A DNA stretch of 64,000 nucleotides from Bactericera cockerelli (Eukaryota > Arthropoda > Insecta > Hemiptera > Triozidae): the NCBI GenBank assembly GCA_024516035.1, contig JAMCCL010000082.1:1-64000 (forward strand). Direction: 5' to 3'. Shown in pieces: positions 27,922 through 58,500 of the stretch; the stretch's first letter is position 1, and each line of letters begins with the position of its first letter. Position numbers and translations under genes: made by a program. The notes under the pieces were generated by a model. It was not told where the DNA came from, searched no databases, and saw only the letters and a program-made list of their open reading frames with translations.

Positions 27922-29817
27922 ATGATAAAATTATTTTCACTGAAACAGCAAAAGAAAGATGGAGAAAATCCAGCTAGATCTGGAACACAACAGAAGAAAG
28001 CATCTGCAGCCCAGCTGAGAATTACTAAAGGTTAGTTTTGGTTCATTCATTGCTCTAATGCCTACATGTTTTACTCATTACCTAAATCTGTTTGAAATCT
28101 AATGAACTTATCAAAGATTCCTGCCTTCAATTTCTTACCTGATCTTAGAAAAAAATATTCCTCAATAAGGCTAAAATGTTTCAGATTCTCAATTTAAATT
28201 TTCTACCTCAAGCACTTCCTCACTGCAGAGATTTTTTGTCTCTACTTAATGTACCATTTTAAATTCTGATGTATATAAAAAATACTAAATCCCCATGGAA
28301 AACCCTTTCTTACTGAACATCAATGACAAAATAGGAAAGAAATGAATGTGCTAAATTTTAACCTTTTGAAGTAGGTATTGCTATTATAGATATCAGTGTG
28401 TGAATGGATTTTGTTAATTTACTGAGCTATGTAATAGTATGTAACTACCTATCATCTTTTCTTTTCTATCATCATTGGCCTCTGTCAACTCTACAGGTGT
28501 TTAAAAACTGTGGTAAGCCTGTAGTTTATGCTGGATTCTTGGGGTAAAGACCAATGAAAATCAACATTATTTGATTTAATAATGTTAGATACTCTACTAA
28601 TCTTGTAGAAATTAAAATTGATAGTATTTTGAATCACTCTTAAATGTATCTTGTTTTTTGTAATTGCAAGTATGTATGAAAAAATCTATGGAAAAAATAA
28701 AAACCATCTTCGAAGAAACTAATTTTCTTGATATGTAAATAGAAACATATACATAATGCCTTGCATTTTTCTTTCAGATTTAAATGAATTAAATCTACCC
28801 AAGACTTGTACAACAGAGTTCCCCAACCCTGATGACCTGCTAACATTCAAATTGATTATCAGCCCTGATGAAGGTTTTTACAGAAGTGGCAAATTTAGTT
28901 TTAGTTTTAAAGTTGGTCCAAACTACCCACATGAACCACCTAAAGTAAAATGTGAAACACCAGTGTATCATCCCAACATTGATCTAGAAGGAAATGTATG
29001 TTTAAATATTTTAAGAGAAGACTGGAAACCAGTGCTAACAATCAATTCAATTGTCTATGGACTACAGTATTTGTTTCTTGTAAGTAATTTTTATGATCCT
29101 TCCTCTGTAGTAAAGATAAGTTGATCCCCTCATCTCCAAACATGCCTTTATGAAAACTAAAAATGAGTTGCTTGAATGAAAGAAAAAAAACTGAAAATAG
29201 TGGGTGATGATTCTATTAGTAAAAAAACTATTGATAGAACATTTTTTTCTTTCTTTTTTTCAAACTTGAACCTGATTTCCTTGAATATTAAAAAAAAAAA
29301 AAAAAAAAAAAAAATCTGACTGCATTTTGTAATTACATGAAAATGATTGACAAATTATTGTTATATTATTTTAACTGGTTAATATGTGCTGGCCTCTTTA
29401 TTTAGAAAAAAGGTTATTTCTATTTTAACACTTTAACTGCCTGTTTTTCATATTTTCACATGAATGTGACACTATTAAAATTCAACTGTGTATTAGTATT
29501 AATTCTGTCACACATGTGACACAAGGCAGTTAATGCCCTAAATATTGACATGTACTCACACCTGAACAATTTTTACTTCTAAGTACATCTAAAGGTATTG
29601 TAAGTATGTATTACGTTCATTGTTATCATTTTTTAATTGATCTAAATTAATTTGTTCATGTTTTCTTTTTATTCAGGAGCCCAATCCAGAAGACCCTCTC
29701 AACAAAGAAGCTGCTGAAGTTCTTCAAAACAATCGCCGCCTATTTGAGCAAAATGTACAGAAAGCCATGCGAGGTGGCTACATTGGCTCTGTTTATTTTG
29801 AGCGGTGTTTGAAATGA
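27922..29817 (+). CDS. Ubc12: NEDD8-conjugating enzyme Ubc12 (UBE2M)
   Basis: This E2 enzyme takes NEDD8 from the E1 (NAE1/UBA3) and transfers it, with Rbx-type RING partners, to cullins. Coding exons are 27,922-28,030, 28,778-29,079 and 29,677-29,817; all donors are GT and acceptors AG, and phases agree. The product is 183 aa, equal to human UBE2M. Residues 1-12 ([12 protein letters not shown]) are the E1- and DCN1-docking N-terminal extension that marks Ubc12. The catalytic Cys is residue 111 in [11 protein letters not shown], with the E2-type HPNI a few residues before it. The C-terminus YFERCLK is typical. The start is the first ATG of this extension. The gene converges on importin-7 from the other strand. 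Identification is from recognisable family sequence and is firm. Confidence 0.97.
29429..29545. mobile_element. short TTAA-type MITE in Ubc12 intron 2
   Basis: TTAA precedes CACTTTAACTGCCTG, and the right end carries the inverse as GGCAGTTAATGCC, followed by a decayed CTAA. The inside has TCACATGAATGTGACA and TGTCACACATGTGACA palindromes. It resembles the 56,701-56,980 element in its CACAYGTGTGAC palindromes. The right target copy is imperfect. Confidence 0.55.
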
Positions 29818-32677: not shown

Positions 32678-35600
32678 TTATCTGCCCAAGGGCTGTCCTC
32701 CGAAATTGAAACTAGTTGGTACCTCCTGGGTGGGCACGAAGGTGTAGCCTGAAACACGAGAATGAAGAAAAATAGGGTCACTTCTAGGAATGAATTATTA
32801 ACATGGGGTTCACTTCCAGGAATGAATGAATGATTAACATGGCGCTCACTTCTAGGAATGAATGATTAACATGAGGTTCAGTTCTAGAAATGAATGATTA
32901 ACATGGGTTCAGTTCTAGGAATGAATGATTAACATGGGGTTCAATTCAAGGAATGAATGATTAACATGGGGTTCAGTTCTATGAATGAATAATTAACATG
33001 GGGTTCAGTTTTAGGAATGAATGATTAACATGGGGGTCAGTTCTAGGAATGAATGAATGATTAACGTGGGGATCAGTTCTAAGAATGATTAAAGAACATT
33101 GTGTTAATTCTAGAAATGACAAATAGAACTTGAGGTCAGTTTAGGAATAATTTCAATAATGAGTTCGTACCATAAAATTGGCAAGATGCATGACTAAAAA
33201 AAATCCTCGAGAATTCATACATTTCTTTGGCAGGGTACCCTTGGCTCAGAATCGCCATGATTGTGTTAGATAGTACTAATACTCATACTCATACTCAAAT
33301 GAAAAATAACATCGTGATAGTTAACAACATGGTTTTTCAATAAATAAATGAGATCCCCCCGCCAGGTCCAAGCGCAGGTATGTCACGTGATCAATTTGGA
33401 ACTCTGTGATTGGTGGAAATCGATCACGTGACGTTAAATCTATATTTTTTTAAAGATGTGTGTTTCACAGCCTTTTATTATTTCGTAGCCATAAAACAAG
33501 AGCTACTGTAAACGCTTGTGGTCTGTGTTGTAGCTTGCCCATCTCGTAGTCTCCCCTCTGATGGGCGAGTAGCATCACAATACTTCCCAACACGAGCGCA
33601 CCGGAAGGTATAACTTATAACAAATGTAACCAATTTTAGAATACAATTTTTTGTCGGCTGGGGGATCGAACTCGGGACCTTCCGCATGGCTACACTTTAG
33701 CCGGGACCCAGCAGTCGTATCTCGACCCGGCCATAAATCGTGCTTAAAATCTTTCTCTAAATAGATGGAGTCCTCCTGACAAGGTACTTATTTGTTCAAT
33801 GACTTACCTCCACTCTGTTCAATTCGTTTACTCTCGGCTGATGCTTTCCTCTGATCGGCTAGCCGGACAATGTCTGTGAGGGCTTCCTTTTGCTCTTGCG
33901 TCAAGTCCTTCACCAGCATTTCATACCAATATGGGTCTGAGGACTGCAGATCTGAGAAAATGGGGGCAAAGAAAAATTGTGTGTTACTTGTTAGTTATCA
34001 CATTTTCTTTTTTTCTCACACTCTCGTTTTTCATTCATTCATTTACATTCTATCCATTTACATTCATTCATTCATAATCAACACATTCATATGCACTCCG
34101 AAACGGCTGAACCAGATGACTCCTAATACCTTGAACTTACTGTATCGCACCTGCTTGAATACATTCTACTTACTGCATCGCACCTGCTTAAATACATTCT
34201 ACTTACTGTATAGCACCTGCTTGAACACATTCTACTTATTGTATAACACCTGCTTGAACACATTCTACTTACTGCATCGCACTTGCTTAAATACATTCTA
34301 CTTACTGTATAGCACCTGCTTGAATACATTCTACTTATGCCGTATTTTTCTTTCTAACCAAAGTTAACCAAACGGGAATAAAATGAACCAAACTGGAAGC
34401 AAGCCATTTTTCTTCTGGAAGAGGAAAAATTTCAACTTCCAAAGTTAACCAAAGTGGAAGTAGAAAATTCTTGCTTCCAGTTCTTTTATGGGTTAAGTCC
34501 ATTGTTAATCTTTAAAAGTAACCAAACGCATTTTTCTTTTACGAATGACCTTGGAATAAAATGGAAATTTGGAAGAAACCTAACCAGGAATTTTTTTTTG
34601 GTTAGAAAGAAAAATACGACTTTACTGTATAGCACCTGCTTGAACACGGTCTATTTTTTTTTTTTTTTTTTTTTTAACGAATTTACGGGGTCCACCAACC
34701 CCATTCACAGAAGCTAAGGAAATCTCCTTGGGCAACTGCTCAAGGTAAAAATTTTACTTACTGTATAGCACCTGCTTGGTACTTACTGTATAGCACCTGC
34801 TTGCTACTTACTGTATAGCACCTGCTTGCTACTTACTGTATAGCACCTGCTTGCTACTTACTGTATAGCACCTGCTTGAACACGTTGTACTTACTGTATA
34901 GCACCTGCTTGAACACATTCTACTTACTGTATAGCACCTGCTTAAACAGTTGAACACATTCTACTTACTGTATATGTATAGCACCTGTTTGAACACAGTG
35001 TTATATATTTTTAACCTATAAAACATATAAGACCTGTTTGACTGCTGGAGTAAAGGGACTTTTCAGTCTTACCTCAACAGTATAAACAAGGTATATTTTA
35101 TTCTATTCTACTTACTGTATAGCACCTGCTTGAACACGTTCTACTTACTGTATAGCACCTGCTTGAACACGTTCTACTTACTGTATAGCACCTGCTTGAA
35201 CACGTTCTACTTACTGTATAGCACCTGCTTGAACACGTTCTACTTACTGTATAGCACCTGCTTGAACACGTTCTACTTACTGTATAGCACCTGCTTGAAC
35301 ACGTTCTACTTACTGTATAGCACCTGCTTGAACACGTTCTACTTACTGTATAGCACCTGCTTGAACACGTTCTACTTACTGTATAGCACCTGCTTGAACA
35401 CGTTCTACTTACTGTATAGCACCTGCTTGAACACGTTCTACTTACTGTATAGCACCTGCTTGAACACGTTCTACTTACTGTATAGCACCTGCTTGAACAC
35501 ATTATTATTATTATTATTTACTTACTGTATAGCACCTGCTTGAACACGTTCTACTTACTGTATAGCACCTGCTTGAACACATTATTATTATTATTTACTT

Positions 35601-38600
35601 ACTGTATAGCACCTGCTTGAACACGTTCTACTTACTGTATAGCACCTGCTTGAACACATTATTATTATTATTATTTACTTACTGTATAGCACCTGCTTGA
35701 ACACATTATTATTATTATTTACTTACTGTATAGCACCTGCTTGAACACGTTCTACTTACTGTATAGCACCTGCTTGAACACATTATTATTATTATTTACT
35801 TACTGTATAGCACCTGCTTGAACACGTTCTACTTACTGTATAGCACCTGCTTGAACACGTTCTACTTACTGTATAGCACGTGCTTGAACACATTATTATT
35901 ATTATTTACTTACTGTATAGCACCTGCTTGAACACGTTCTACTTACTGTATAGCACCTGCTTGAACACGTTGTACTTACTGTATAGCACCTGCTTGAACA
36001 CATTATTATTATTATTTACTTACTGTATAGCACCTGCTTGAACACGTTCTACTTACTGTATAGCACCTGCTTGAACACATTATTATTATTATTTACTTAC
36101 TGTATAGCACCTGCTTGAACACATTATTATTATTATTTACTTACTGTATAGCACCTGCTTGAACACGTTTTACTTACTGTATAGCACCTGCTTGAACACG
36201 TTCTACTTACTGTATAGCACCTGCTTGAACACGTTGTACTCGTCCACGGCGGAGGTCTCCTCGTCCAGTGGCGTGGTGTACGCCTCCAGCGTGGTCTCCT
36301 CCGCCGCGTCGAACTCCTCGTCTTCCGAGTCCTCGCTACTATCCCCGCTGTCCTTGCCTCCCTCCTCCCCTGCCGTCACGAAGCAGGAGGTGATGTTGAA
36401 CGGGGCCCCGCCGCCGCCCTGTTTCGCCTTCTTCTGAATCTTCTGCTGCAGCCGCTCCAGATATTCTTGGCCCGCCTCGTCGATTTCGTCCTCGTCGGAG
36501 GACAGCTCGTCTGGGAACAATTAATGATAATAATTGTTACACACTGTATATCCTAAATATCCAACCCTGTATTCGAGTCGAAAACAAGCCTCAACTTCGT
36601 TGGAGGAGACTCTGGAACTACCAGCTTCCAACATCGAGAGTCTGCCCTCAGTACACCTCTTATCAGTCAAATGTAAGTGAACGGAACAACAATAGCCCCA
36701 TCATATTTAGTCCACTGCTCAAATAAGAAAACCAACTAGTCAAAGGCCACGGCTTTTACAGTCCTCCGTGTCCTCTTTCCTTGCTATCGAACAATAATAA
36801 TATCGCTTTATTTATACTGCCCCATTAGGACTATTAAGTCCCATTATTCCAGCAGTAAGCTTAAAACGCATTATTATGTAGTAAAAATAATAATAATAAT
36901 GCTTTTTCTTTGTGTTATTATGTCACAATTTTAGTGGGTAGCGCAGAATCATAGGACTTTACCACTTTAATTTACAATATCTTGTATTATATTTTTGCCT
37001 ATGATTCTGCCACTGGTCGCTGCTTCACATCAAAGCAGCTACTCATTTTTCCTCACGAGGTATGAGTGGACCCCGAACATCCAAGTACAGAGCAGAAAAA
37101 ATCCTCCCCCGCTGGGAATCGAACCCAGGTCACCATGTGTGCAATGCCTAGCGCGCTAACTCACTCTGCCACAGTGACTACTCCATTAGGACTATTAAGT
37201 CCCATTATTCCTGAAGTAAGCTTAAAACGCATTATTATGTAGTAAAAATCCTAAATGGTAGGAAAACTTGTCATGTTCCGGCCGGGTCGAGTTGCCCTCC
37301 TAGGTCCAAGCTCATGTTGGTGTAATAATATACTCTTAAGTAGAAGGTAACCCACTAGACGAGGTTAATGTTCAAAACATTTTCTACCACCTAACTCTCA
37401 GAGTCTTTTATTATTATGGGGTTACAAACTCAATTAATGAGGAAAAATTCATGCACTGGGTGGGATTCGAACAAACGGATGCCTACACTACCTGGATTAC
37501 CAGACTAGCGCGTTAACCACTTGACTACCAGTGCACGGTTTTGGATGTATGTACCAGTGACCATCAGGAGATGTAAGGATTATAAGGTCACGTGATCACT
37601 TGGGGCTCTGTGATAGGTGGTAGTTCTAGATGCAATATTATAGTTCCCAGATTTTCTACCTCGGTTCAACGAGGGGTTGTTTTTAGTGGGTTCGCCAAAT
37701 CCCCTTCTCCCAATCTCATAGTTGGTAAGCCCTTTCTCGATAGCTGGGACTTGGGGGTGTAGATACATATCACCATGTGTTTATACTCCGTGGTTCTTGT
37801 TCTTGGGTTCGGTTATGTTTGCTATTTGCGTATCGGGTTCACTGTTTCCTTGTAATTTTTTTCCCCTCGTAAGAAAAAAAAAGAAAAAAGATAGGTATAG
37901 GTGGTAGTTGATCATGTCCTGAAAGTCTCGAATCAACTCGAAGACACTTACCCGAGGCGATGTCTTCCGAATCGTCGCTGTCCGAACTGCTCTCGTCTTC
38001 CTTAGCTTTGGCCTCGTAGGCTCGCTTGAGCCCGTCAAACAGCAGAATGAGGGAGGGCATGATCTTGGCGGTGCACTCGAACAGCACCTCCGGCCGGGGT
38101 TCAGGCAGAGAGATGAGGGTGCACAGACCCAGCACACACAGCTTCCTGTCGTGCAGCCTGTGGGGGAAGCAAAGACAAGAGCATTATTCTATTATCTGAC
38201 CTGGTTGCAGGGTTTTCAATTAAACCCTTACAATTAACACTGCGACCTAATTAGATCTATTGTGTCCAGTTGATTCTATTTGGTTTTAACGTCCTGACTG
38301 AGATAGATAGTCAGGACGGGGGTTTTACCGTCCATTCGCTAGGAATCGTAGCAGCTACCCACATTAACCTCACCCAGCCTGGGTAGGGCCGAAAATACCA
38401 GCCTCACGTGTTTGGATGGAACAGAATTTTCGTCGAAAAGTCTGTCCCAACCGGGAGTTGAACTAGGGAACTCTGGACTACGGGCAGTAGTCACAACCAT
38501 TACGCCACGGAGGCTAGCTAAGTTTGGTGGTATTTTTAGCTCCATTTTCCCTATGGGGAGAGCTATTGTTTTCCTTTTTATTTGTGTTTACCATCGCTTT

Positions 38601-49536: not shown

Positions 49537-52500
49537 GACTCCTGACTCAAATCAAATCATTTAATCTATGTTTGCTATAAAAATAGCCCATAGATTCAAA
49601 ATGTACCACACCATTGTAATATGAGAAATAAAATGAAATAATTATGATATAATTATATATTTTTTTTCTTAATCTTCTTCTTCTTCTTTTATCAGGTGAA
49701 ACCAGGAGGGCACGAACCTGGGGCTCGATGTACTGCACCGTGTTCTTCTGGTGGTTGAGAAACATCTGGATGGCGATTCCGGCCTCCACCTTTACGGGCA
49801 GATCCTTGTCATGCAGCAGAGCGTTCAGCAGCAGCCGCACAGCCTCCACTAGGATGGCCTCGTCCCGGAACTTGACCTCGCTGAAGTTGTACAGGGTCCA
49901 GCACGCCTGGGAGAGGAAATTAAAAAAAAAGTTATTATTATTATACAGTAAAACCTCCCTTAACGGACACCTCCGAATAGCGGACAATTTTCAGGGAACC
50001 GGGACATTTTTCATCTGTTATTATATGAAAACCTCCGAATAGCGGACCCTAATAATAGCGGACTCTTTTTCCCTATAGCTAGGATACAAAATTGAAGATT
50101 TCGAAGGAGGAAGTGATAAAAAAAATAATTAAAAATCAACGTAAACTCAAAGACATTTCATGCGTAAGTTATCTAGGAAAAGAGATTTATGAGTCTACCC
50201 TCTCTCCTACCGATGACCCCAAGAGTGAGGAAGAAACTGAACCAGAAGGAGATCTTACATTTCCAAAACCTATCAAAAGTTTGGAGGAAGCTTTAGTTGC
50301 CATCAGGAATGTCTCTGATTTCCTATCTTCAAACCCAAGTGCAAACACCAAAAAACGTCTTTGACGACCCCGCCTTCCCCCACCGCTTAATTTCCAACCC
50401 CCCATGGGATCTGATTCTACCTCCGAATAGCGGACACCTCCCAATAGCGGACAAAACATTTGTCTGATTTCAAGTTTAGCCCGCGAACACCCCCGTCGTG
50501 ATATGACCAAGCAGTTAAAAGCGACGTTAACCCCAAATTAAATAAATAAGTTTAGCCCCATTACAAAGCACGTCATAATGGCTGGTAATATTGAGCAATA
50601 ACATATAACCCCCTCAGTCAACACAAGTTTTAGACCAGGTGTCTAAAACTTTCGACGAGGGGTATATATGTTAATTTCTTGCGTTGAATTTTTTTTGTAC
50701 AGAATAAAGTATAAAGTATAAACATATTAAAAAAAAATAAATAATAAAAATAAAAATCAACTGGTGAGTCATCTTCTCACCCTAGCTCTCATGTGTCCGT
50801 GAGGATTATTGAACTCGGGAAACACATAGGTGCAGATCAGCTTATCCATCTGTTCCTTGTACATTTCCTTCTTCAACAGAATGTCGGCCACTTGTCTGGA
50901 AAATGTGAGGAAAAATAATTGAATACCAAAACTTTGCACTCAGAGAGAGCACAGAACTGATGATTCTTTTTATCAAAAATGTTAATTGAAAAAAATATAA
51001 AATAATCCGACAGACTTCACACTCTTGCAAAACTTTTTGATTTCATGACTAAACTTATCACTTTTCAGTTCCAGTGTAGCTGATGTCAGTGGCTTGTTGC
51101 ACACACAAGTTCTCTTAAAATTACTTAAAATAAGCAATGTCAAGTGAGGTTAGGACTACTTGCTACACAGGTAACCAATCAAAATGAAAATTTGACAGCA
51201 TCAATGGCACATTATACCAGTTCTCCTTCTGGCACAGATCACGGATGTTAAGCAGCATCCAGCAAGTTTATGACTTGGATTTGCATACTGTCTTGGATGA
51301 GAAAATTAAGATCTCTATTTTGTCTGTTAATTTCGTCCTTAGTCTAATGCTGCTTTATGATTTTGCCCTTATTTTTGCGCTAAGTTGAATCTTGCAATTC
51401 AATCACCCCAACATATACAAGGCTCTGTCAAATCACTCACCCCACCATGTGAAGGGCTCCATCAAATCACTCACTCACCCCACCATATGAAGGGCTCCAT
51501 CAAATCACTCACCCCACCATATGAAGGGCTTCGTCATATCACTCACCCCACCATATGAAGGGCTCCATCATATCACTCACCCCACCATATGAAGGGCTCT
51601 GTCATATCACCCACCCCACCATATGAAGGGAGGGGGGGGATGTTAAACAGGGAGAAGACCAGTGTCTCGCTAGAGGACTATAAACAGAGAACAGACTAGC
51701 CAGCCGTTACAAGCCAGGCTAGCTTGCAGTTTCCTAAGGGTTTAATGGCTTATAAAGAAAAGTGCAAGTCCTCATGATGGTTGATCGCACCTAGAAATAT
51801 GTGGTTCAGGACGAGCCAACTTTGAAATAAAGTTGGCTGGAGACCATCACTCACCCCTCTAGCTGTAGCAAAGCTGGCTACAACAACAACAACAACCATA
51901 AGAAGGGCTCTGTCAAATCACTCACCCCACCATGTGAAGGGCTCCGTCCTTCTGCTTGGCTTCCGCCTCCGGGGAGGTGAGCACACTCACCACGAACTGC
52001 ATGGTCTTGCTCAGCATGTGCTTGCGCTTCTTGCACATGGCATGCAGGAGCGTCTGGGCCGCGGACACCGGGGACACAAAGTCCTCGAATATGTCTGAGG
52101 GGAGATAAGCAAGACTTTCTATTAGGTACAGTAATTGATACAGTAGAACCCCGTTATTATGAACTCCGATATTATGAACTTCGGATAAAAAGAACTTTTT
52201 TTTTCCACAATTTTTTTTTTTTAATGGAAATTTTCTCTAGTTTTTTCAAGAATTACTGACTTCTTTAGATCCTCACAATAGGTCTATGAACAATGTATAT
52301 ACATATTTTGAGTAGTCACTGTGGCAGAGAGAGTTAGCGCGCTAGGCATTGCACACATGGTGAACTGGGTTCGATTCCCAGCGGGGGAGGATTTTTTCTG
52401 CTCTGAACTTGGATGTTCGGGGTCCACTCATACCTCGTGAGGAAAAATGAGTAGCTGCTTTGATGTGAAGCAGCGACCAGTGGCAGAATCATAGGCAAAA

Positions 52501-55500
52501 AAAAATAATACAAGATATTGTAAATTAAAGTGGTAAAGTCCTATGATTCTGCGCTACCCACTAAAATTGTGACATAATAACACAAAGAAAAAGCATTATT
52601 ATTATATTACATACATATTTTGTATTTATATACCTAATCTATACTTAAATTAACCTTCAAATACATGTACGCGCGTTCATAATATGTGTCTAAAATTTGC
52701 CTAATTTTCCTTTCTTTTACCTTATGATTATATGGAACCCTGATATTATGAACTTTTACATTGAACCCCGCTATTATGAACTACCCTTGGTCCCAATTAG
52801 TTCATAATAACGGGGTTCTACTATAGTAAGTTCTTATTTCGACAAAAACCAGTCTCTTCAACCAGTCTGTAATAATAACATCACCAAACTCACCAAACTT
52901 GACCCGGATGTACTCATGCGGGTCGGAGCTCCACAGCTCCTCGTCCGAATCTGAGTAAGAGAGGAAGGGGAAGAGGACCTCCTGGATGAGGGAGGTGGCG
53001 TGCGGCTTGAGCCTCGTCCAGCAGTGCCCGTGGCCCACCGCCTGGGTGAATCAATTAGTAGTTATTGTAACAAGTTTACATTACAAGTTTAATGGCTGGG
53101 GGACGTTAAACAGGGAGATAAGACAAGAAAATGTTATATTGGGGTGCTCATTCAACATAAAAGTTGTTAACACAAGTCACGGTACAAGTAGAAGTAATAC
53201 AAAAAAAAAACATAAAATACAATAAATACAAAAAATATAGTAAGGGAAGAGACACTACAAAATAAAGAAAAATCACAATATATCAGAGATAGTGAAAAAG
53301 GGGTATGCAAAATACTCATCGTAAACCTAACATGAATCAGGGCACGTTTCATCAAAATCCATCGAGAGGTACTCATTAATAGAGTAAAAAGCTTTTGTTT
53401 TTAGGACATTTTCAATATATGATTTGAATGCAGGGTAATGTAAGTCGCGTACAGATGGTTGTAATTTAGGAGAGGAAGGGGAAGAGGACCTCCTGGATGA
53501 GGGAGGTGGCGTGTGGCTTGAGCTTCGTCCAGCAGTGCACGTGGCCCACCGCCTGGGTGAAGCAATTAGTGTTTATTTTAACAAGTTTAATGGCTGGGGG
53601 ACGTTAAACAGGGAGAAAACCAGTGTCCCGCTAGAGGACTATAAACAGAGAGGGTACAAAACTCTTTCACGGGCTCTAAAACAAAATACGCCAGTGTTTG
53701 ATCTAGCTATTTTTTTCTTCCACAAAAAAGTAAAATAGTAATATGTTCTGTGAGTAAAATAATAATATGGAACGTATCATATAGTTTATCCACAAGGAAT
53801 TTTTGAACCATTTCAAGTATGACAATTGGTCTTAAACAAAATATAAGTTCTACACCATGATCAATTTTGCAATGTATGAACATTGAACATTCAGAGGAAT
53901 TGAGTGTGAAGATGGCGCTGGAATTGGAAGGGTAGTGGAATGATGATTAAAATTAAGATATTCGTGAACGATGGTAGCCAGACAGTGGAGGAATGACTCA
54001 GCACTTCTGCCACTGTCTTCACAAGGAGGCTAATAATTGACACGGGCCGCCGGAACCAAGCCAATGCTGGTCTACTCCCTGGTTATAGTTCCCCAGCCAG
54101 ACTATTAAGATATTATAATGTTTATATGAACACGTATGAGACGGCGTGCCCACCGGTGGGTCACGTTTTTTTTTCAATTTTCCTTGTAACGTGACCCACC
54201 GGTGGGCACAGATAACGCTATTATTAATATATTTTTGTAATCGCCCGTTCCATTTTTTTTTTTCATATTTGGTACACATACCCTAATTTGAAGCCGTCCC
54301 AGCGTACAAACTATAGAAAATAGGACCCGTCTCATACGTGTTAAGATATTATAATGTTTATATTAATAAATATTTTATGTTCTTGTTTGGAAAAAAAAGA
54401 ACACGTTAAGGTACATGCCTGGGTAAGATAATTGAGCGCCTGCTGCATGACCCGCGGGGAGACGTAGGTGCCGCCCCTGTACTGGGCGAGGGTGGCTAGC
54501 AGCACGTCCAGAATGCCCGCGGAGAAGGTCTTCAGATACCAGCGGGCGAACTCCTCGTAGTCAGACACCACGCCGCCCGGGCTCCCGTACCTGAGGGGCG
54601 AGAATCATGGATGGACTTTCATACAACTAATTATTATTATTATTAGTTAGTTATCATATTTGTGTTAATCACTTTCGTGTTATCACAACTACTCAAACTC
54701 GCTTTATTGAATCTACGCTGAAACCGGGACTTGAACCACCGACCTCCAGGTTACAAGTCAGCCGCCTTATCGATCAAGCTATTGAGGTCGGTGGAATTAT
54801 GGATGGAATTTCATACAACTAATTATTATTATTTAATTATCACTTTATTATCAAAGGTTCAGTACATCACAACTATCGGAAACTAGTTCAACATAGTATG
54901 TATAAATCTAAAAACAGTTACAATCGGTGGTTACAGTACAATGGAATCTTCACACGTTAAGCACCTTCCTGATGATTGACGTGGTGGACAATTATTATTA
55001 TTATAGAATAGAATAGAATATACCTTGTTTATACTACCGAGATAAGACTGAAAAGTCCCTTTACTCCAGCAGTCAAACAGGTCTTATATATTTAATAGGA
55101 TAAATATTTTACATTTATAGTGTGCTTTATTAGGTAAGACAAAAATATACAGTAAAATACAATGAAATTATAAAGAATAAATAAATAGCTTGAAAAGAGA
55201 AACAAGAACAAAAAAAGACAATGAAGCTAATGTCCTAGCTAAAGGGTGGGGTTATTACCTGTGGCAATCTCTCTTTTTATACAACTAAATGTCTCTTTCT
55301 ATGGATAGACGCTCTTCACACCTCGGCCGAGGTGTTTGATAATATTATTAATTATTCATGGGTTAGATACTCGCTTGCCATGCGCGAGGACCCGGGTTCG
55401 ATCCCCCAAGCCGACAACACAATTGTATTCCAAATTTGCTGTCTGTAAGAAATGTAAGGGATACCTTCCGGTGCACTCGGCCTCGTGCTGTCCCAACACC

Positions 55501-58500
55501 TAAATGGAAAGTATTGTGTCACTTCTCACCCATCAGAGGGGAGGCATACTACAGGATGGGCATGGGCAAGCTACAACACAGACCACAAGCGTCTACAATA
55601 GCTGCTGTTTCATAGCTACGAAATAAAAAAGGCTGTGAAACAAATGTCTTTCATCATCATCATAGGGTGGATGATAGCCAGACAGTGGAGGAATGACTCA
55701 GCACTTCTACCACTGTCTTTTCAAGGAGGCTAATAATTGACAAGGGCCCCCAGAACCAAGCCAAGGCTGGTCTACTCCCTGTTTATAGTCCCCCAGCCAG
55801 ACTGCTGGTCTACTGCCTGTTTATAGTCCCCTGGCCAGACTACTGGTCTACTCCCTGTTTATAGTCCCCCAGCCAGACTGCTGGTCTACTGCCTGTTTAT
55901 AGTCCCCGGCCAGACTGCCGGTCTACTGCCTGTTTATAGTCTACAGTCTAAGGTTCAAACTCTCACCTCTCGAAGACCCGGTACAGGATGTGGAGAGCCC
56001 ACTTCTTGCACTTCCACCAGGGCAGGTCGGCCCTCTCGTCCTCGTCCACACTGAGCGTGTGGTCTGGCACGGGCCGCTCGGCCACTTGACGGAAGATCTC
56101 CATCCACTGAGCGAACACCTCGCGCGATATAACCTGAGGGAAATGAAAAGATTTTATGAAAAAGGAAATGAAAATAGGGTTGGGTGGAAGAGATTGCCTA
56201 AGGCAATAACCCCGCCCTTTAGTTAGGACATGTTTTCAAATATTTTCTATTCTTTTTCATTTTTATTGTATACATATATTGTTTTTTTCATTTTTTCACT
56301 GTTAAAATTATTATTTGTATGTACATAATGTCCTTTTGTATCTAATAAAGAGATGTATAATAATAATAAAAAGACAGCTATAATTCTCAAAATACACATG
56401 CCACAATTCTCAAAATAATATTTAAAATAATAGTAAATAAAATGCACATGCCAAACGAATATCATTGGCAGTACAGCAAAGAAATGCTGCTAACGTGGAG
56501 GGGCAGGCTTTTATAAGTAAAATAGTGTGGTATGATTTATTAACTAAAACAAATGTGAATGTGCATGTCTATATAATTATGAATTAAGGTATGTATACCT
56601 ATTTCAATTAGTATGAAAAGACAAAACTAGAATTTCAAGACAAGTTCCTCTTGTGATTTAGATATGCACTAAGGAGATATTGGGATTTTAGATCATTTAA
56701 CACATTGATTGCCTTGTCACACTATATGTGTGACACAATGTTAAACCTATATGCCACGTCACACATATTGTGTGACAGTCGATGCTACTTTGAATGAGTG
56801 TCACACTAGGATAAGGAAAGTAAAAATAGAAAGAAAAGAAGTGTTACTATTTTTTGGTGTGACGTGGCATACAGCGTTAAAAAACCACCTCTGTATGCCA
56901 CGTCACACAAAATGTGTGACTATGTACAGTAACGTGGCGTACGGGTAAAGTGTCCAAAAATGACCTTGGCAGTCAACGTGTTAAAGTAGAAGATAGCCAG
57001 AGGACATTGATTAAAGTGTAGAATTTCTGACCTATAGAACTTAATAAAAATCACCTTTGGTACAGGCAGTGTGTATTGAGTGAAGGCAAAGAATATTTTG
57101 AGTATTTGCTTCTGCAGAAGGGTGGAGTGCTCTGATGGGTCTGGCAGGAGGCGGATACACAGGGAATACACTTGGGGTAGCAGGAGCATCATTGCATCAT
57201 TCAGCTGACCTCGTTCGCTTTCATTCTTGTATCTGATAAATAAATAAAACAATACTAGATATGAATGATGTTTGCGTTTTTGTGCTAGCAAAATTAAGCT
57301 ACTATCACCAGTTTTTTTCTACTTTTTCTTTGATATACTAGGTACAGTACAAATTCTTAATATTTGGAACTACAGGGCAGAACACTATCACCCCAGTACT
57401 ACACTTTTTAATATTGTTCTAGAACCTAGAGAGTTTCTTGTTATTGTTTTTTTCTTCCTCAGCCTTTCATCATCATAGGGTGGCGTCATCGTGAACGATG
57501 GTAGCCAGACAGTGGAAGAATGACTCAGCACTTCTACCACTGTCTTTACAAGGAGGCTAATAATTGACAAGGGCCCCCAGAACCAAGCCAATGCTGGTCT
57601 ACTCCCTGTTTATAGTCCCCCAGCCAGACTACTGGTCTACTTCCTGTTTATGGTCCCCCAGCCAGACTGATGGTCTACTCCCTGTTTATAAGAAGGCATA
57701 GGGTGGCGTCATTGCTTATGATGGTAGACTTAGCCTTATTAAATGGAATAGTTATATTTTGAAGGAATATTTATCTGGTAGGTTTTCATTTATATTATGT
57801 ATACTTGGTTAACTTACTCGTAGTTTTTGACCAGTTGATAGAGACAGAGAAGAGCTCCAAACCAAGGAGTTGCATCAGGATTTTGCAGATAGATGCTCAC
57901 TTTGTCAACAATTTGTGTCCACTTGCCTGGGAAATCATGTTTTACTATGGAGCTCACACATACAGCCAGTTGGACTCTGAGAAAGAGATTACAATTTAGA
58001 ATGTTTTAGAAATGTAATGTATGAATTACATTACATTGTCTATAATTGATGAGAAGTAAATCAGCTTATATTAAAGGCATGTTGAATACACCAGTTCTTG
58101 TTCTGTCACTCTGAGTTAAATGTGGGTTGCTGGTTATAAATTTTCAGAAAATGACCCCCATCTCAGTATGAGCTTAGCATTTGAAAGGAACATAAAATCC
58201 CAAAAAAATCTTTTTCTTCTTTCCATTAAAAGCCCAGGTGCAATGTTCTGGGCTCCTTCAATGTAATGTAAGAGCAGAATTGATAAACATTTTGTAATAA
58301 CTCTGTGGCACTAAATCTTGAATGACTTACTGTATCTATTTCTTTGAAAGGGAAAACTGATGTTAAGTAATGAATTAAGTCGTGGAATATGATGACTAAC
58401 TGGTAAAGTACTACAGTTTAATATGAAAAATCAATTAGAGATAATGTCTCACTAACCTGATAACTTCTGGTGCCATGACTACAGCATCTACAATAGCATC

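Follow-up and report, generated by a model that had tools for sequence, protein, structure and literature searches.

Tandem copies of an exon end with its 5' splice site in introns 19 and 9 of the importin-7 gene of the psyllid Bactericera cockerelli

Minisatellites whose tandem unit spans an exon-intron boundary have been described as mirage minisatellites in amphioxus, in Adh3, the globins BflGb6 and BflGb9, troponin C and PGBD5, and they are reported not to disturb regular splicing (PMC3087553, PMC3902484). In the first account the units measure 10-160 bp, both 5' and 3' boundaries are involved, many copies carry splice signals, concerted evolution is uneven along the array, and BflGb6 differs between two haplotypes, with 6 units in one and 3 in the other (PMC3087553). 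In intron 7 of human factor VII, variable 37-bp repeats hold the true donor in the first of a series of near-identical units, and donor use has been studied; according to a review, splicing normally takes the most upstream donor alone (PMC6627357). Borensztajn 2006, the primary factor VII paper, and Canestro 2002 are cited here through other papers. Intron gain by tandem duplication, as outlined in the cited accounts, likewise involves a short duplication that makes extra splice sites (PMC4974935, PMC2891723).

The window analysed here was the whole stretch of 64,000 nucleotides from B. cockerelli contig JAMCCL010000082.1 (assembly GCA_024516035.1, positions 1 to 64,000), and its importin-7 gene contained two arrays of this type. 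Both had a boundary-spanning unit with intron-side copies, many of them with splice signals, and the uneven homogenisation of the amphioxus arrays also recurred in the larger one. Unlike the amphioxus mirages described, the importin-7 case came from an insect and comprised 46 copies, with the same gene carrying a second array. The intron 19 array resembled factor VII intron 7 in having its true donor within the first repeat, and its decoys had the same sequence as that donor. The factor VII intron 7 repeats number under ten copies, and there donor use was studied, whereas for importin-7 we infer it. In contrast to intron gain, an existing intron was lengthened and none was newly formed. The importin-7 arrays are a large, doubled example of a known oddity, not a new kind of system. 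No insect exon-boundary minisatellite was found in the open-licence literature, covered mostly as titles and abstract openings, and no claim of priority is made.

The importin-7 (moleskin) gene lay intact on the minus strand of the window. Its 21 coding exons, located by tblastn with a human sequence as the query and joined by hand, encoded 1070 aa with 0 stops, and the product matched PDB chain 6n88 (importin 7 L homeolog) at 1234.9 bits. Among the best 120 of 1179 matches, the closest proteins were from psyllids: Diaphorina citri (92%) and Cyamophila willieti (90%). The five closest proteins, P0001-P0005, included two from D. citri (P0001 and P0004) and one from C. willieti (P0003); the source sequence of P0002 is probably a transcript, because at 3446 bases it is so short. 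The 20 splice donors were 19 GT and one GC. The apparent non-canonical GC donor, CAG|GCATGT, ended exon 7 (54410-54427, minus strand), and by eye no GT donor nearby would keep frame with exon 8.

Coding exon 19 (36211..36510, minus strand) was 300 nt long and was defined by homology and reading frame; its 3' end formed the first unit of the array. Exon 20 (33808..33951, minus strand) was preceded by the acceptor TTTCTCAG. Across the exon 19/20 junction the window read FKQVLYNLQSSDP, as did three of the five closest proteins (P0001, P0002, and P0004), while P0003 (C. willieti) read FKQVLYNLRSSDP and P0005 read FKQVLYGLQSSDP. Because of this junction reading in related proteins, the end of exon 19 was set at ACA|GTAAGTA, with the true 5' splice site at 36204..36210 (minus strand).

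Intron 19 (33952..36210, minus strand) was 2259 nt long, and 2077 nt of it was array with its insertions. The whole array of exon end plus donor occupied 34134..36237 on the minus strand. Starting from the true donor at 36210, 45 downstream copies reached 34140, giving 46 in total. A sequence-only reading of the locus had described about 45 such units with the true end of exon 19 as the terminal one, and both points held, the second by reading frame and related proteins. The same reading had each unit join 22 exon bases to a perfect GTAAGTA. Exact GTAAGTA was present in 43 of 46 copies, whereas base composition predicts about 0.23 occurrences in 2106 bp; 25 exon bases matched exon 19 in the four copies compared, and the seed is described most simply as 27 exon bases plus GTAAGT. 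The nine-mer from -3 to +6 of the true donor, ACAGTAAGT, was common to 42 of 46 copies, and 30 bases around the donor were identical in 23 of 46, the true donor counted. The most distal copy (34134..34140, minus strand) was GTAAGTT; here the array read GTAAGTTCAAGG, with a different +7 base, and passed into non-array intron sequence.

The main spacing between donors was 33 bp, as first proposed, but the period was less regular than that: spacings of 44 and 47 (ATT-expanded), 41, and 25 also occurred, together with three wider intervals (136, 147, and 320) that held inserted foreign DNA. Divergence of the copies had likewise been said to increase with distance from the exon. This trend was present but loose, with a Spearman coefficient of 0.54 across the 46 copies, which are not independent: 11 identical 33-bp units followed one another mid-array (donors 35445-35115), and ATT-expanded copies lay near the exon. 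The copy number within the identical run comes from one assembly and is not to be trusted, as this is the type of stretch that assemblers can miscount. It is nonetheless very unlikely that the array as a whole is an assembly artefact and much shorter in the animal, given that simple over-expansion does not yield units of varied length, private substitutions, or three unlike insertions, and that the intron 9 array is separate.

The three insertions were distinct. A short element at 34341..34618 had a perfect 22-bp inverted repeat close to either end and TAA on both sides. It is probably a non-autonomous DNA transposon; the flanking TAA may possibly be a target duplication, and the element seems to have inserted at the TAA within a GTAAGTA copy. 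A retroposon-like insertion with an A-run in the minus-strand sense lay at 34649..34754, and a third stretch of foreign DNA at 34998..35104, the limits of both being set by eye. The third stretch carried the only AATAAA or ATTAAA of intron 19, an AATAAA at +1109; across the 20 introns the number of such signals ranged from 0 to 9.

The 43 GTAAGTA copies lay on the transcribed sense strand, and two U1 roles were considered for the array: U1 held over the intron would keep it from being cleaved and polyadenylated too early, or the copies would act as a U1 sponge. The heptamers were there, but as U1 sites they were not strong: the true donor lacked a G at -1, and its U1-duplex energy of -7.2 kcal/mol ranked 16th of the importin-7 gene's 20 donors, on what is a crude measure. 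U1 pairing per site was therefore weak. One poly(A) signal in intron 19 leaves little to protect, and intron 11 with 9 AATAAA/ATTAAA and intron 16 with 7 carried 2 and 4 GTRAGT sites. U1 is also far too abundant to be depleted by some 43 sites on each transcript. A U1 role in either form gains slight support at most, and we regard it as remote.

Every one of the 45 longer exon choices, made with any downstream donor of the intron 19 array, brought in an in-frame stop, in agreement with the sequence-only reading. At the stop-codon position the 46 copies comprised 30 TAG, 11 TAA, 3 TAC, and 2 other codons. The doubled 33-bp seed block kept an open reading frame, the putative seed unit itself being open (TAC). 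An intact conserved protein without extra residues, provided the cell makes it, would require splicing at the first donor. Since the local sequence is identical, donor choice must rest on position, the donor used presumably being the first after the exon.

These stops would also suit a regulatory array in which some internal-donor transcripts meet a stop and undergo nonsense-mediated decay, importin-7 output then being tuned by the number of copies as by a rheostat. Leakage is conceivable, with the same donor nine-mer in 42 of 46 copies and a true donor below the gene average in strength. The stop sits in the first intronic unit, however, where a single base change accounts for all 45 of 45, and normal splicing is reported for the amphioxus and factor VII arrays. 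In the donor heptamer 5 of 322 cells differed, a rate not clearly lower than the 16 of 736 in the 16 exon-derived bases beside it; the 7 bases of the unit seam were more variable (55 of 322), and the copies compared are non-independent. A heptamer varying about as little as the adjoining exon-derived bases is expected without extra constraint on donors. Its first base differed in 1 of 46 copies, which amplification from intact units also explains. Selection on the donors is accordingly not claimed, and a decay rheostat is unlikely, while a mild regulatory effect of the intron 19 array is possible.

Most of the listed units also had AAGCAG followed 10 bases later by GTAAGTA, a layout in which some internal copies could be mini-exons or recursive splice sites. 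The CAG had no pyrimidine tract before it, an exon of 10 nt would shift the reading frame, and none of the eight aligned proteins, of which none is known to come from this species, had an insert at the junction. Use of internal copies in this manner is hardly credible.

A second donor-derived array, absent from the sequence-only reading and built like the first, occupied intron 9 (51395..51925, minus strand). It was seeded by the end of exon 9 (51926..52094, minus strand, placed by homology and the joined reading frame), whose true donor, GTGAGT, lay at 51925. The exon end and donor (GGAGCCCTTCACATGGTGGG|GTGAGTGATTTGA) were repeated as 34-bp units, detected by TRF at 51395-51630. From the exon, the true donor was followed by an adjoining broken copy, about 250 bp of other DNA, and then the 34-bp units. 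In total, seven GTGAGT sites were present in or around the array, the true donor included, and reading beyond the true donor gave an immediate TGA stop. Additionally, 153 bp within intron 7 (53467..53619, minus strand), about 0.5 kb upstream, duplicated part of exon 8 together with its acceptor and the intron sequence before it. This copy was truncated before the exon's donor and is a possible pseudo-exon.

Recurrence was scored systematically, taking 38 bases around each of the 20 donors against its own intron. The scores were 76 for intron 19 and 57 for intron 9, while the remaining 18 introns scored 12-22 and donors compared with other introns reached a maximum of 22 (380 comparisons). Chance similarity as the origin of the copies is rejected on these own-intron versus cross-intron scores. 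Among acceptors intron 7 alone stood out, with 67 against at most 18 elsewhere. For windows internal to exons (38 bases, exons 2-20, sense strand; 466 comparisons), scores above 23 came from the exon 8 duplication and from one window overlapping the exon 19 unit. All three exon duplications found by the test in importin-7 span a splice junction. A three-exon gene for a NEDD8-conjugating enzyme lay at 27922-29814 on the plus strand, which we take to be of the UBE2M/UBC12 type by comparison with a human sequence. Neither of its two donors recurred in its own intron (scores 15 and 18), and the second donor scored 24 against 3 kb downstream.

Other minisatellites in the window were considered as exon-derived and rejected: those of introns 20 (32-bp), 6, 4, and 11 (31-bp) had no exon-end match. 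The 32-bp minisatellite of intron 20 (32774-33119), which precedes the last exon's true acceptor, had units reading TTAATCATTCATTCCTAG that resembled a branch site plus acceptor and was not exon-derived. Introns 6 and 4 contained the same 38-bp repeat followed by the same non-repeated tail (55766-55941 and 57594-57690); this is a dispersed element with a minisatellite of its own.

The best explanation of the intron 19 array, and a probable one, is a junction-spanning tandem duplication that is tolerated because splicing takes the donor nearest to the exon. As the seed, a short block covering the end of exon 19 and the start of intron 19 would have been duplicated in tandem, which placed a second donor downstream of the first. 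If the original donor was GTAAGTT, as in the most distal copy, the duplicated block would have comprised the last 27 exon bases plus GTAAGT, 33 bases in all. Seeding may have occurred at a 3-base microhomology between the AGT that precedes ACAACG in the exon and the AGT of the donor GTAAGT; at just 3 bases this match could be chance. The early duplicate could have been tolerable even if used, because the doubled 33-bp unit stays open in frame. Unequal exchange or slippage would then have produced growth to 46 copies with partial homogenisation, foreign DNA would have been inserted three times, ATT tracts would have expanded in some units, and a later C-to-G change would have turned TAC into TAG, closing the formerly open unit.

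Persistence would follow from the position of the copies. Those after the first are intronic and would be removed as long as splicing takes the first competent donor. Where a later copy was chosen, a stop codon would follow at once and the transcript would probably be lost. We think it most likely that the array plays no positive part, its neutrality being a reading of the sequence. Simple tolerance, which had been listed among the possible roles at the outset, fits best, considering the intron 9 array, the exon 8 duplication, and precedents reported to splice normally. Together the intron 9 array and the partial duplication of exon 8 point to recurrent mutation. A broader proposal would make psyllid genomes prone to mirage arrays at donors and the importin-7 array a copy-number-variable rheostat, its length setting the level between individuals; we consider this quite improbable.

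The locus provides a natural test of donor choice, since models reading only shared local sequence cannot pick among the 42 of 46 sites that carry the same nine-mer. Exon-boundary minisatellites, met with in amphioxus and human factor VII, occur in an insect as well, twice in one housekeeping gene. That the duplications span junctions would be explained because a copied block bearing a junction hides in the intron and a junction-free block enters the message. This suggests a rule of survivorship, under which exon sequence may multiply freely only if the copied block carries the splice junction that hides its copies in an intron.
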